From positions 744,001-808,000 of the forward strand of contig JALQBC010000005.1 of the NCBI GenBank assembly GCA_023375675.1: a stretch of 64,000 bases of DNA, given 5' to 3'. Position numbers and translations under genes: made by a program. Below the pieces are notes generated by a model. That model saw only the letters and a program-made list of their open reading frames with translations, had not been told where the DNA came from and did not search any database. Below are positions 58,980-63,323 of this stretch, one piece after another. The DNA comes from Cytospora piceicola (lineage: Eukaryota; Ascomycota; Sordariomycetes; Diaporthales; Cytosporaceae). Each line of letters opens with the position of its first letter. Position 1 is the first letter of the stretch.

Positions 58980-60209
58980 TCAATGGCAAAACCCAGGCAA
59001 GAGGTCGGTTGCATTGAGTGTCGAACACGCCTGCGCCAATGCTAGCTGGTACTGCAACATCCCTACGTCAAAGGCCTTCTTCGCGTATACCGCCGAGTAC
59101 ACCCCCGTGACCACGCCGAAAATCGCGAGCATTCCAAATGCAATCGCCGTCCAGAACGTCCAGAACTGCAGTGTGTTCGTGCCGTCCTTGTTGAGTATGA
59201 ACTGCGCTCTGCCAAGCGGCTGCTGTGAGAGAACTTCTGCCAGCTCTCCGATCTCCTTTCGCCAGTAATGGTACTCCTGGATATCGTACTTTGTTGCCCG
59301 ACCGCAATTGCCGAGGCCGTGGAAGGCTTTCCCGTGTCGTCGCAGAAGGGACTTGGTTGACTTCTTGCCGAATGGAAACAGAAGGTTCAACGTGTCGATT
59401 GCCTCCTCGACGAGTGGTAGCGGGAGTACAGCGACATGTTTCTTAGCCATCCTATCGTGGTTCCAGAGGAAGATCTTGTGTTCATATATCAGGATTCGTC
59501 GCGGGGATCCAGGATCGATCTTGAGGTGGTCTGCGAGGTTACTTGTCCAGCTGATTTGATATCCGTGTTCTTTCACAAGGAGCGCCATCGAGAACTTGGG
59601 GTCGATTTTGTTTGAAAACATTGCCGGGCGCCCCTTTCTCTTTTCGAATTCACTGTGAATAAGGCTCTGGAAGGTGGTGTTATCTCTCCAGAGAATGGTC
59701 GTATCTACTTGCGTGATCTTGGGAACGGGGGATCGCCGCGGAATTTGAACGTGTAAGTTGATCCATATCCTTATTGCCAACTCGGCTGAGAGGCAATGGG
59801 GGTCTTGTAGGGAGACGGGTGTGTTGACTGCACCGTTGACGTCAAGACCCAACATAAGCTCGATGACCTGATCCCGTGGAAGATCTGGCTTGAACTTCTC
59901 AACAACATTGAGGAGTTTTTCTGGGCTATTGATGGCGTACGAAGCTGGATATTTGCTCATTCGTCCCAGTTCTTCGTGGACATAGTCCAGAAAGTCCCGG
60001 CATTGCTCGGCGTTGACTTCACCTCTAATCGCAGGCAAGAGTATTTTGACGTAGTTCGGATCGTGATCATATTGACGCCAATGTTTCGAGAATCTCTTCA
60101 ACGATTTTTGCATGTTGAAATTTTTCCGAGGCTCCAAAAAGTTGTCGAACTGAGATACGAAAGATCCCGCAGGCTCGAGCGCCACCGAGAAGTAGGTATA
60201 GCTGACCAT
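58980..60209 (-). CDS. Fungal accessory protein with one C-terminal membrane segment, function unknown
   Basis: Single exon, 409 residues, ATG at 60209. Residues 1 to about 345 are soluble-looking: a helical N-terminal half (KSLKRFSKHWRQYDHDPNYV, AEQCRDFLDYVHEELGRMSK) and a mixed C-terminal half including LAIRIWINLHVQIP, ILWRDNTTFQSLIHSEFEKR and HGYQISWTSNLADHL. One hydrophobic segment follows at about 349-377 (FWTFWTAIAFGMLAIFGVVT). After it comes AFDVGMLQYQLALAQACS and a short tail. FWTFW plus a transmembrane helix plus LQYQLALAQAC is an end I know from uncharacterised, patchily distributed fungal proteins. No enzyme motif is visible. Its 5' end faces the protease gene across 413 bases, so co-regulation is plausible. 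Confidence 0.8.
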   Translation of the reverse strand: MVSYTYFSVALEPAGSFVSQFDNFLEPRKNFNMQKSLKRFSKHWRQYDHDPNYVKILLPAIRGEVNAEQCRDFLDYVHEELGRMSKYPASYAINSPEKLLNVVEKFKPDLPRDQVIELMLGLDVNGAVNTPVSLQDPHCLSAELAIRIWINLHVQIPRRSPVPKITQVDTTILWRDNTTFQSLIHSEFEKRKGRPAMFSNKIDPKFSMALLVKEHGYQISWTSNLADHLKIDPGSPRRILIYEHKIFLWNHDRMAKKHVAVLPLPLVEEAIDTLNLLFPFGKKSTKSLLRRHGKAFHGLGNCGRATKYDIQEYHYWRKEIGELAEVLSQQPLGRAQFILNKDGTNTLQFWTFWTAIAFGMLAIFGVVTGVYSAVYAKKAFDVGMLQYQLALAQACSTLNATDLLPGFCH

Positions 60210-60622
60210 AAAATAAGCACGGAGGCACTGATAGCCTTTTTAATACTCGTCCAGCAGACCTTGGAGATTTCGTAAACGGCCGTCACTGGTTACCACCCGT
60301 TCCGAGCCAGTGCGTCTGCGTCAACCCCACCTCCCATCACCCTACCAGTCAATATATCATAGCGAAGCAAGACTGATACACCCTGTTCCCAGGCCTCAGA
60401 GTCATGTTACTGACCACATGCTTGGATGATTTCCATGCTAATGTAAACAAAATGTATTTGCCAAATTTGGAGGATTATTCACAGACATAAGCTTGCAGAC
60501 AAGATGAGTTCTCTTACCAAGCTACCGTAGCTTTCACCAGTATCACTTCTGCAAGACGAGCTGACAGTTGTTTGGCCTGTAGCTGCTGCCAATGAAAGCC
60601 CTGCCATTTAGCCACACTGCGA

Positions 60623-63323
60623 ATGTGGTTGCAGAGCCAAAACCCCTCATTGAGCCCGGTCAACCATCTTCCTCTAGAGGCCAAGAGTGCTGATGGAATT
60701 ATCGTTTCCAACTTCTCGTATCCAGCTTCAGAAATACCTCCCACAAGCAATATCCAAACGAATCCCAGCACGTGCGCAGTGTCAAAAATGTCGATGACAA
60801 TGACCTCGCCTGCAGCACCGACGACTGCGAGCAGCACCCCGAGCAGTGCGTTGCATGCGCAACAAGACAACGGAACTCTGATGAACATCTCTGATCCTCG
60901 CCTTCACCTTATATCCACAATGTGGAGGTTGTATCGGGCAGATCCAGAAGTGCGGCCGACAGGAAGTCTCAACCAGCTGTGGGATACCGAAATCCTTGAC
61001 CATATTGACAAAGACATGGAGCCAGCACGGCGCAAGATAAGAAGCAAGTCCAATTGCAAAACCACGATGGACACGATGTTTACGTCGGACCTCCTTATGA
61101 CAGGCACGGCTCAAATAGGGGCTAAACAAGTACTTCTGACCCCTTGCATCTGGTTCTTCTGTGGAAGTCGGTGGTGCAGAAGGATAGTCAAAGAAGTGGC
61201 TAAAGATATGGATTGGCCGAAACTCTATGGTATCCAGCAGGATTGCAAATATGAAGTCGGGGGACCCGTGCTCGCTGCACATGAAGATGGGCCCACGAGT
61301 CACGAGGAAGGGGGTCTTCAACTCGACCTAGAGCACGGCATCCACCTATCTGATCATTTCAGGGCATATTTGCATGTTCAAGATCCAGACAGCCTCCGAG
61401 AAAGAACTGCTGTCGGTCTTGCTTGTTGCGCCACTATAACGCAAGACCACACAATTATATCGCAAAAGCTTGCACGAGTGGCTGGAATCGTCGAAATGGA
61501 AAACATTGACGGATCTGAAAAGACATGTTTTGGGTTGACGACTTGCCATCACTTGGTGAACGCAAATATCGAACCATCACATGAGGAATTTCAAATCAAT
61601 TCCCAAGAGAGTTCCTGCGACACAGTACCAAGCCAGGAAAACCATGAGACTACATATGCAGAGAGCGATGTAGACAGCGATGTAGACAGCGATGATTATA
61701 GCGACGAGGCCAGTTTCACAGTTGGATTCGAACCTCACTCTTCACCTTCCATTCGAAAGACCAATCCTCTCTCGGACGTCAGATGGATAAATGTGAGCCA
61801 GTGTGTGGGGGGAGACTTTGCTGGTCTCAATGTCGGCTGCTCCACATCGAAAAGACCTGGGCTTCCGGTAGCAGACCTGGCAGTCTTCAAGCTGCCGCTT
61901 CTGCAGCATGATTTCGACTATAATACGTACCGGAACCCTTCGGGAAACCCAATCAGACTCGACTTCTGTCTGAGCGACACTCTTGGATCAGACGAGGTCT
62001 ACATCATCAATGATACGGCAGCGGCATGTCTGGCGTATCCGCTGTCTGGACCTATGCACTTCTGTATCAGAGGTGAGATTTTGGAAACTGTCAGGGTCAA
62101 ATGCGCAAAGCCTCTCGGTATGTGGTTTTGTCCGATGTATACAAGTCAATTCACTTACATTCTTAGACATTGGCTCGTCTGGATCGTGCGTTGTGAGAGG
62201 TGATGCGTTCTGCGGCATGATCGTGGCAATCTTCCCTAGAACGCAGTACGCATTGATGGTAACGACGGAGAACATATTCTCTGGAGTTTGGAACCTACTT
62301 CCCAGTATCTTAGATACAAAACTCACTCTTCTGTCTCCGCGCTGGGTCTCTATATCCTCTCATAATGGACCCCGTTCGACTCCTGTAGCGCGCCCTTACC
62401 CCGTGTTTGTCTACAAGAGCGACGAGCCTATGAATCGACCAAAAGATGCAGAGGATATAGTCCTTGCACAAGTTATCTACGATGAGAGCAGTCCATTTCT
62501 GAGTCAGATTGAAGACATACGGAGGAACTGGGAGTCAGAAATTGACCCAGCAATGCCTATCAGATTGAGCTTTTCGAAGGATGTGCATCGTTCGGTCACA
62601 ACCAAAGAACCGGAGTTCAGAATTGAGATTCGGAACGGCCATGTCATCATTTGTGATGCACGAAAGAAAGAACTTGGTCATCTTCCCCCCCTTAGGATCA
62701 CCTGTGAGGACAGGACAAAACAGCTTATGTGCCGCTTAAGACATCTGCAAGCCTTCTCTATGGTGTTAAAGCTCAAGACAACGGCGCCAGGAGGTCCTGT
62801 TGCCTCGGTCTATTTCCATCAGCGGTACTCCGACCCTAAGGCTCATGCTATATCATCCTATCAAATCATATTTAAAAATCGCGAATCCAGCGAGGTTTTT
62901 TTCACAGTGCTGAGACTGACCCATTCATACGGCGTTCGTCAGGTTGTCCCATCGCCAGATGAGGGAAAAGGCATCATGGTTAAAGGTAGAGGCATGTGGC
63001 ATGGGACTATCGACATCGAGGTTCCAGAAGCTCTGGCTTCGGAGTATAAGGACGCTGATTTCTTTATGGAAGACGTGTTCATGACCTTCATTAGTTTCAT
63101 ACCGGTGGACTTAAGCTGCTGCCAGCTAGAGGACTGGAATGGAGCAGGCAATGTGGGTTTCCAGTATGCAAGGGTGCAAGAGTTAAGCCAAACCTCATGG
63201 AGTGTTCAACAGAAACCAGGTTACACGTGGGTCAAAGGGGCTCAAGAGGACCAAGAGGACCAAGAGGACCAAGAGGACCAAGAGGGCAAAAAGGGCAAAC
63301 CTCTCAAAGGCGTTCAGCGATAG
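60623..63323 (+). CDS. Trypsin-like serine protease fused to a caspase-associated-type C-terminal domain
   Basis: Two exons, 60623-62117 and 62167-63323. The 49-bp intron has donor GTATGT and acceptor TAG; the junction reads AKPL/DIGSSGSCVV. The product has 883 residues from the first ATG; the ATG at residue 56 (nt 60788) is an equally good start. N-terminal region: a block around 144-205 (LLTPCIWFFCGSRWCRRIVK) found in uncharacterised fungal proteins. Protease core: His in FGLTTCHHLV (H309), Asp in VADLAVFKL (D418) and Ser in DIGSSGSC (S503), the full triad in trypsin order. An acidic DSDVDSDD insert lies between His and Asp. From about 672 to 830, ITCEDRTKQLMCRLRHLQAF, IIFKNRES..VFFTVLRLTHSYGVRQVVPS resembles the region C-terminal to caspase-like domains in fungal proteins. 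No signal peptide, so probably cytosolic. The protein ends in an EDQ repeat. Confidence 0.82.
63243..63287 (+). repeat. 9-bp coding tandem repeat (EDQ) near the protease C-terminus
   Basis: CAAGAGGAC repeated four times perfectly plus one copy with a single change, adding EDQ units, followed by a lysine-rich end (EGKKGKPLKG). In-frame 9-bp units allow length variation without frameshift. Confidence 0.92.

Follow-up and report, generated by a model that had tools for sequence, protein, structure and literature searches.

A head-to-head gene pair for a putative trypsin-like protease and a single-helix membrane protein in Cytospora piceicola, with a differently built counterpart in the same genome

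A 64,000-nucleotide stretch of the Cytospora piceicola genome (contig JALQBC010000005.1, positions 744,001 to 808,000; C47:744001-808000 in the searched genome of 43.6 Mb and 99 contigs), referred to as the window, carries a divergent pair of genes at 58980..63323. The membrane-protein gene runs from 60209 to 58980 on the reverse strand, and the gene for a candidate trypsin-like serine protease runs in the opposite direction on the forward strand, so that the two are arranged head to head. What is new is that contig C12 bears another divergent pair, in which a relative of the membrane protein adjoins a differently built protease. The recurrence of the layout suggests from the sequences that the two genes work together. 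The window protease and membrane protein may therefore constitute one functional unit that mounts a protease-triggered membrane response such as cell death or defence, a reading to which we assign a probability of roughly 0.42. The window pair itself was described in a first-pass annotation made from the sequence alone, whose coordinates and layout were correct.

The protease product comprises 883 amino acids when counted from ATG 60623 or 828 from the in-frame ATG 60788, which is the likelier start because the Cytospora mali relative P0102 begins there. A candidate catalytic triad is present in trypsin order as H309 (TTCHH), D418 (ADLAVF), and S503 (GSSGSCVV) in the longer numbering, corresponding to H254, D363, and S448 in the shorter one. 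A loose triad signature, a regular expression written from general knowledge, was matched by none of 50,000 shuffles of the protease sequence. Its Ser part alone was found in 3 of 50,000 shuffles, in none of 100 membrane-family proteins, and in 1 of the 176 window open frames of at least 100 amino acids, namely the second exon of the protease itself. The signature fits the relative P0101 and misses P0103, which has Met at the last position where the expression allows V, I, A, or L. His and Asp were invariant in all eight aligned sequences (window and P0101-P0107), of which the most distant is 36% identical to the first row. Ser was kept in the three that reach its position; the gene models of P0102 and P0104-P0107 end at the intron and were not scored there, and P0109 was outside the triad table. 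The triad reported in the first-pass annotation is thus upheld by the motifs, the shuffles, and conservation in relatives. The assignment to the trypsin type rests on motif and conservation, because Pfam, the PDB sequence search, and AlphaFold gave no support. At E values of up to 1, the window exons gave no match to the Pfam models Trypsin or Trypsin_2, and no meaningful match to the protease was found among PDB chains by sequence. A chymotrypsin fold is unproven for the window protease.

In a hydrophobicity reading made without a dedicated signal-peptide prediction, the protease showed its most hydrophobic stretches in the core and the tail and not at the N-terminus. The N-terminal block contains four Cys with the spacing C-x4-C-x4-C-x21-C (P0101 residues 88, 93, 98, and 120), invariant in the eight aligned sequences, which possibly form a metal site. 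The linker between His and Asp (window 61620-61710) is acidic, rich in Asp and Ser, and of differing length among the relatives. Close to the C-terminus lies a short Gln-Glu-Asp repeat (window 63245-63290) that is missing from P0101.

The membrane protein consists of a helical domain, a conserved linker, and a long helix that includes the membrane span. Its structure model reached a predicted local distance difference test (pLDDT) score of 86.6 and is helical, with just two strands of three or more residues. The single strongly hydrophobic segment, residues ~352-374, starts where the FWTFW motif ends and lies within the long helix, which agrees with the earlier description of a head-to-head neighbor ending in FWTFW and a membrane helix. 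Mean pLDDT by block was 74 for residues 341-350 and 91-97 for residues 351-400. In the family alignment, WTxNLxxHL, YEHKIxLxNH, and EAIDTLNLLFPF are conserved in the helical domain, and DG-x-N and FWTFW in the linker beside the membrane helix. The search of the window membrane protein against Pfam returned 0 families. The 578 bases between the start codons of the two genes (413 when counted from ATG 60623) could hold a shared bidirectional promoter; no unusual folding was seen in 60210-60500.

Three genes of the membrane family were detected in the genome, in the window and on contigs C12 and C44. The best paralogue, on C12, is 31% identical to the window protein (hhalign E 3.1e-30) and makes up a head-to-head pair with a long open frame containing TTAAHA, GLDYALVKV, and GDCGTWIID. 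Behind these trypsin-like motifs, the frame matched Transglut_core (PF01841, E 4.4e-15) and Rad4 (PF03835, E 9.1e-11), and we take its transglutaminase domain to be of the PNG1 type. A separate transglutaminase copy, 63% identical over the core to that of C12, was observed at C28:406922-408096. Trypsin-like genes appeared rare in the genome: PF00089 had 0 matches and PF13365 a single one, on C90, presumably HtrA-like. The GD-x-G-x-W pattern occurred 23 times, compared with 13 in the reversed control, and only the C12 occurrence represents a trypsin-like motif in a fitting long frame. Such searches would miss diverged copies, since the window and C12 proteases both escape the Pfam trypsin models. 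Given how few trypsin-like genes were detected, the two genes at C12 are unlikely to adjoin by chance. With a second, differently built pair, the pairing goes beyond the claim made in the first-pass annotation.

The pairing was also found outside this genome. A membrane relative was present on an equally sized contig for three of the eight listed foreign protease relatives (Table 1), where equal size serves as a proxy for a shared contig, the longest contig per cluster is shown, and strand is not visible. Together with the C12 pair, this bears out the expected recurrence of the pairing in fungal relatives. Among the at least 100 membrane relatives listed, no partner on an equally sized contig was seen for P0104, P0106, P0107, and P0109, and the 3,045-base contig of P0101 is too short for a neighbor. 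The identities of membrane protein and protease to their window counterparts were 70.5% and 57.3% in C. mali, 50.7% and 38.8% for P0005/P0105, and 79.3% and 50.8% in Cytospora leucostoma, where the membrane figure covers 169 residues of the conserved half only and is flattered by this. In all three pairs, compared without a background set of other orthologues, the protease was less similar than its membrane partner. The scarcity of detectable protease relatives and the larger differences between species in the protease than in its neighbor speak against the protease being a housekeeping gene kept one-to-one.

The membrane family is widespread, with at least 100 relatives listed from sources including Xylaria, Podospora, Fusarium, and Dothideomycetes; the nearest species-labelled relatives of both window proteins are from Cytospora. 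The family alignment (A5) retained 89 of 100 rows after removal of 11 short or near-duplicate ones (P0009, P0012, P0041, P0079, P0081, P0083, P0086, P0089, P0094, P0099, and P0100), and no Pfam family was common to more than two of the 89 members. One of the removed rows, P0009 (C. leucostoma VPNG_01009), is annotated as a protein of 268 amino acids with a non-homologous end, which is probably a gene-model error.

The C-terminal tail of the window protease resembles that of a caspase-domain gene in the same genome. Seven matches to PF00656 were found on contigs C5, C9, C12, and C18, and downstream of the one at C12:776929-777837 (L007), which is ~330 kb away from the protease/membrane pair of that contig, a frame carries a similar tail. 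We take this shared type to be the C-terminal beta-rich tail of fungal caspase-domain proteins. The protease tail matched the L007 gene in phmmer with E 1.1e-6 when only the two frames of that gene were the target, and its tail in hhalign with E 1.6e-5 (probability 79%). In a control that covered the seven PF00656 loci on both strands (397 frames of at least 40 amino acids), the same frame was the best hit, with E 2.2e-4 for the window tail and 1.9e-3 for the P0101 tail, and no other frame reached E 0.1; because of these higher E values, support for the tail is weaker than first computed. The tail was present in one of the four caspase-domain genes seen. The caspase-associated tail proposed in the first-pass annotation is thus supported for one caspase gene but is not matched significantly at the other caspase loci. 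The window protease itself had no match to Peptidase_C14 (PF00656), which sets it apart from caspase-domain proteins with such a tail.

Table 1. Features of the window pair, related loci in the genome, and foreign protease/membrane pairs
Feature	Position	Strand	Basis or remark
Membrane-anchored helical protein, 409 amino acids	58980..60209	-	Open reading frame, alignment, structure model
Long helix, model residues 346-395, FWTFW at start, hydrophobic 352-374 inside	59025..59174	-	Model
Intergenic stretch between start codons	60210..60787	.	Open reading frames
Protease exon 1: N-block (invariant Cys; WFFCGSxWC), TTCHH with His, acidic linker, ADLAVF with Asp	60788..62117	+	
Protease intron, 49 bases, GTATGT...TTAG	62118..62166	+	Homology in the gene models of five relatives ends here
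Protease exon 2: Ser motif GSSGSCVV, linker, C-terminal tail, stop codon included	62167..63323	+	
Trypsin-like/PNG1-Rad4-type transglutaminase fusion, Cys at nucleophile position (GDCGTW)	L012:3041-6115 = C12:442040-445114	-	
Third membrane-family member, diverged, apparently with introns	L020:4642-6117 (C44)	-	Helix-end E 4.1e-9
P0102/P0002	Contig of 213,229 bases		C. mali tags VP1G_05902/05900, one tag between
P0103/P0009	Contig of 1,559,245 bases		C. leucostoma tags VPNG_01008/01009, consecutive
P0105/P0005	Contig of 51,577 bases		

If the pair acts as one unit, the protease would be a cytosolic trypsin-like serine protease whose Cys-containing N-block and variable C-terminal module are candidate parts for sensing or assembly. 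It would be co-expressed with its partner from the putative shared promoter, and the partner would be anchored by its one helix in an internal or the plasma membrane. Once triggered, the protease may cleave the membrane partner or otherwise act on it, the likeliest place being the linker directly ahead of the membrane helix; this linker is conserved and was modelled with less confidence. Such a predicted cleavage would free or rearrange the helical domain and lead to a response at the membrane, for example regulated cell death or a putative role in defence.

Several results weigh against this reading. At E values of up to 10, no trypsin Pfam model matched any of nine protease-family members (A4: the first exon of the window protease and its eight relatives). 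The mean pLDDT of the P0101 structure from AlphaFold was 32.3, which makes the model unusable for the fold; neither the chymotrypsin fold nor the beta-sandwich after residue 670 anticipated by the first-pass annotation was confirmed by it. The window and C12 proteases as wholes gave an hhalign E of 0.015 with a probability of 2.9%, and in the profile ranking among 2,001 the whole length came 357th, the N-block 5th, and the Ser region 26th. Over their whole length the proteases are without significant similarity, so the two pairs either go back to a very old duplication or were assembled separately to the same design. Visual inspection of the 9.9 kb read at C44 showed no trypsin-like neighbor of the membrane paralogue. 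Foreign relatives of the window-type protease numbered at least eight among the matches listed (P0101-P0107 and P0109), with Cytospora the sole genus among their species-labelled sources, and none was seen for 96 of the 99 foreign membrane relatives listed; most of these have no visible window-type partner because the membrane family is widespread and the protease relatives are few. In C. leucostoma, P0103 carries a trypsin-like core but lacks the tail, so that the tail is no constant part of the protease family. Nothing pointed directly to immunity, and neither the pair nor the neighboring frames tested gave a Pfam match to a gasdermin, NOD-like receptor (NLR), HeLo, or caspase domain. The two-gene immunity or incompatibility module of the first-pass annotation is partly supported, in that the pairing recurs and the pattern is not that of a housekeeping gene, but gains nothing from these domain searches; the immune role itself is plausible only by analogy with protease/gasdermin pairs.

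The two genes could instead be neighbors without a joint function, the Cytospora pairs reflecting lineage synteny and the C12 pair a coincidence or a relic of an ancient segmental duplication. We regard this as rather doubtful, although both species-labelled pairs come from Cytospora, the matches listed show a far broader spread for the membrane family than for the protease, and the C44 paralogue is unpaired. It would require that the same head-to-head layout persisted with paralogues at 31% identity or arose by chance in a genome with few detected trypsin-like genes, and the pair with 50.7% and 38.8% identity also shares an equally sized contig. An unlikely alternative to immunity is a regulated membrane tether or quality control, where the protease would trim its partner to release a signal domain or survey damage. 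The conserved linker by the helix (DG-x-N, FWTFW) would suit it, and the PNG1-type domain of the C12 protease fits a link to protein quality control, but the few protease relatives and the lower protease identity are unusual for housekeeping, and cleavage is only predicted.

A further possibility, which appears improbable, is that the trypsin-like domain has degenerated into a non-catalytic scaffold and the module acts by binding only. In its favor, another Ser and not Asp or Asn stands before the Ser (GSSGS), Cys replaces it in the C12 copy, and matches to trypsin Pfam models are lacking. Set against this are the retention of His and Asp in eight of eight sequences down to 36% identity and of Ser in three of three, and the use of Cys as the nucleophile by some chymotrypsin-fold proteases. 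Returning to the functional-unit reading, it may be extended to an ascomycete family of single-helix membrane proteins (WTxNLxxHL...FWTFW) that partners fast-changing trypsin-like proteases with a Ser or Cys nucleophile and interchangeable modules, either the caspase-associated tail or the PNG1-type transglutaminase. Together they would form a protease-triggered defence or cell-death system with a trypsin fold and a non-gasdermin effector; this extension as a whole, modules included, is speculative and on balance unlikely to hold in full.

The pair fits the known design of a protease with a membrane partner and is a member of no tested family. Protease/membrane-effector gene pairs are an established fungal design, and fungal gasdermin genes cluster with S8 or CHAT protease genes, as described in PMC12881547 and PMC10197012; in these, fungal regulated cell death is known via NLR, HeLo/amyloid, and S8- or CHAT-gasdermin pairs. 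The window pair resembles HET-Q2/HET-Q1 of the same sources in its adjoining genes for a multidomain protease and a putatively membrane-acting partner. In contrast to HET-Q2, the protease is trypsin-like, with no Pfam match to an S8 or CHAT domain in the window protease pieces or the nine A4 members. The partner is a single-membrane-helix protein with a helical model and 0 Pfam families, unlike the gasdermin partner of the HET-Q1 type. Repeats or an NLR core were not found by Pfam in the window pair, with no NACHT or NB-ARC match in either protein.

Bacterial antiviral defence offers a further likeness, since PMC12799240 describes a trypsin-like protease paired with a pro-nuclease. In Hachiman, AVAST, and other protease/metallo-beta-lactamase (MBL) pro-nuclease pairs, the protease likewise stands beside its partner and is joined to varied modules (PMC12799240), but their partner is a nuclease proenzyme and that of the window a membrane protein, for which pair PADLOC gave no match. 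Trypsin-like peptidases with co-occurring neighbors are also reported from bacterial conflict systems in PMC7159879 and PMC8195603. The vWA-MoxR and NucA-trypsin systems with Trypco1/Trypco2 share the peptidase with a neighbor and interchangeable caspase- or transglutaminase-type domains (PMC7159879), whereas their core components were not found in the window pair by Pfam and PADLOC, searched without a dedicated Trypco profile. The word "trypsin" is absent from the main text of PMC12881547, PMC9815663, PMC10197012, and PMC12258605 on fungal NLRs and cell death. No literature was found on the Cytospora locus tags, and no title among the matches listed concerned a fungal trypsin-like/membrane pair, which does not prove its absence from print.

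To the left of the pair are housekeeping-like genes, one frame with a GEMI5 TPR domain, and then a gene-poor stretch. The HeLo-like relic suspected there in the first-pass annotation did not materialize, with no Pfam match in the four open frames tested at 53.5-56.7 kb. To the right are a small uncharacterized protein and an uncharacterized frame with no Pfam match, which looks to us like an alpha/beta hydrolase.

If the pairing of trypsin-like protease and membrane protein is functional, it would represent a new, directly testable protease-effector module and would provide a handle on a widespread family of membrane proteins that has no common Pfam family.

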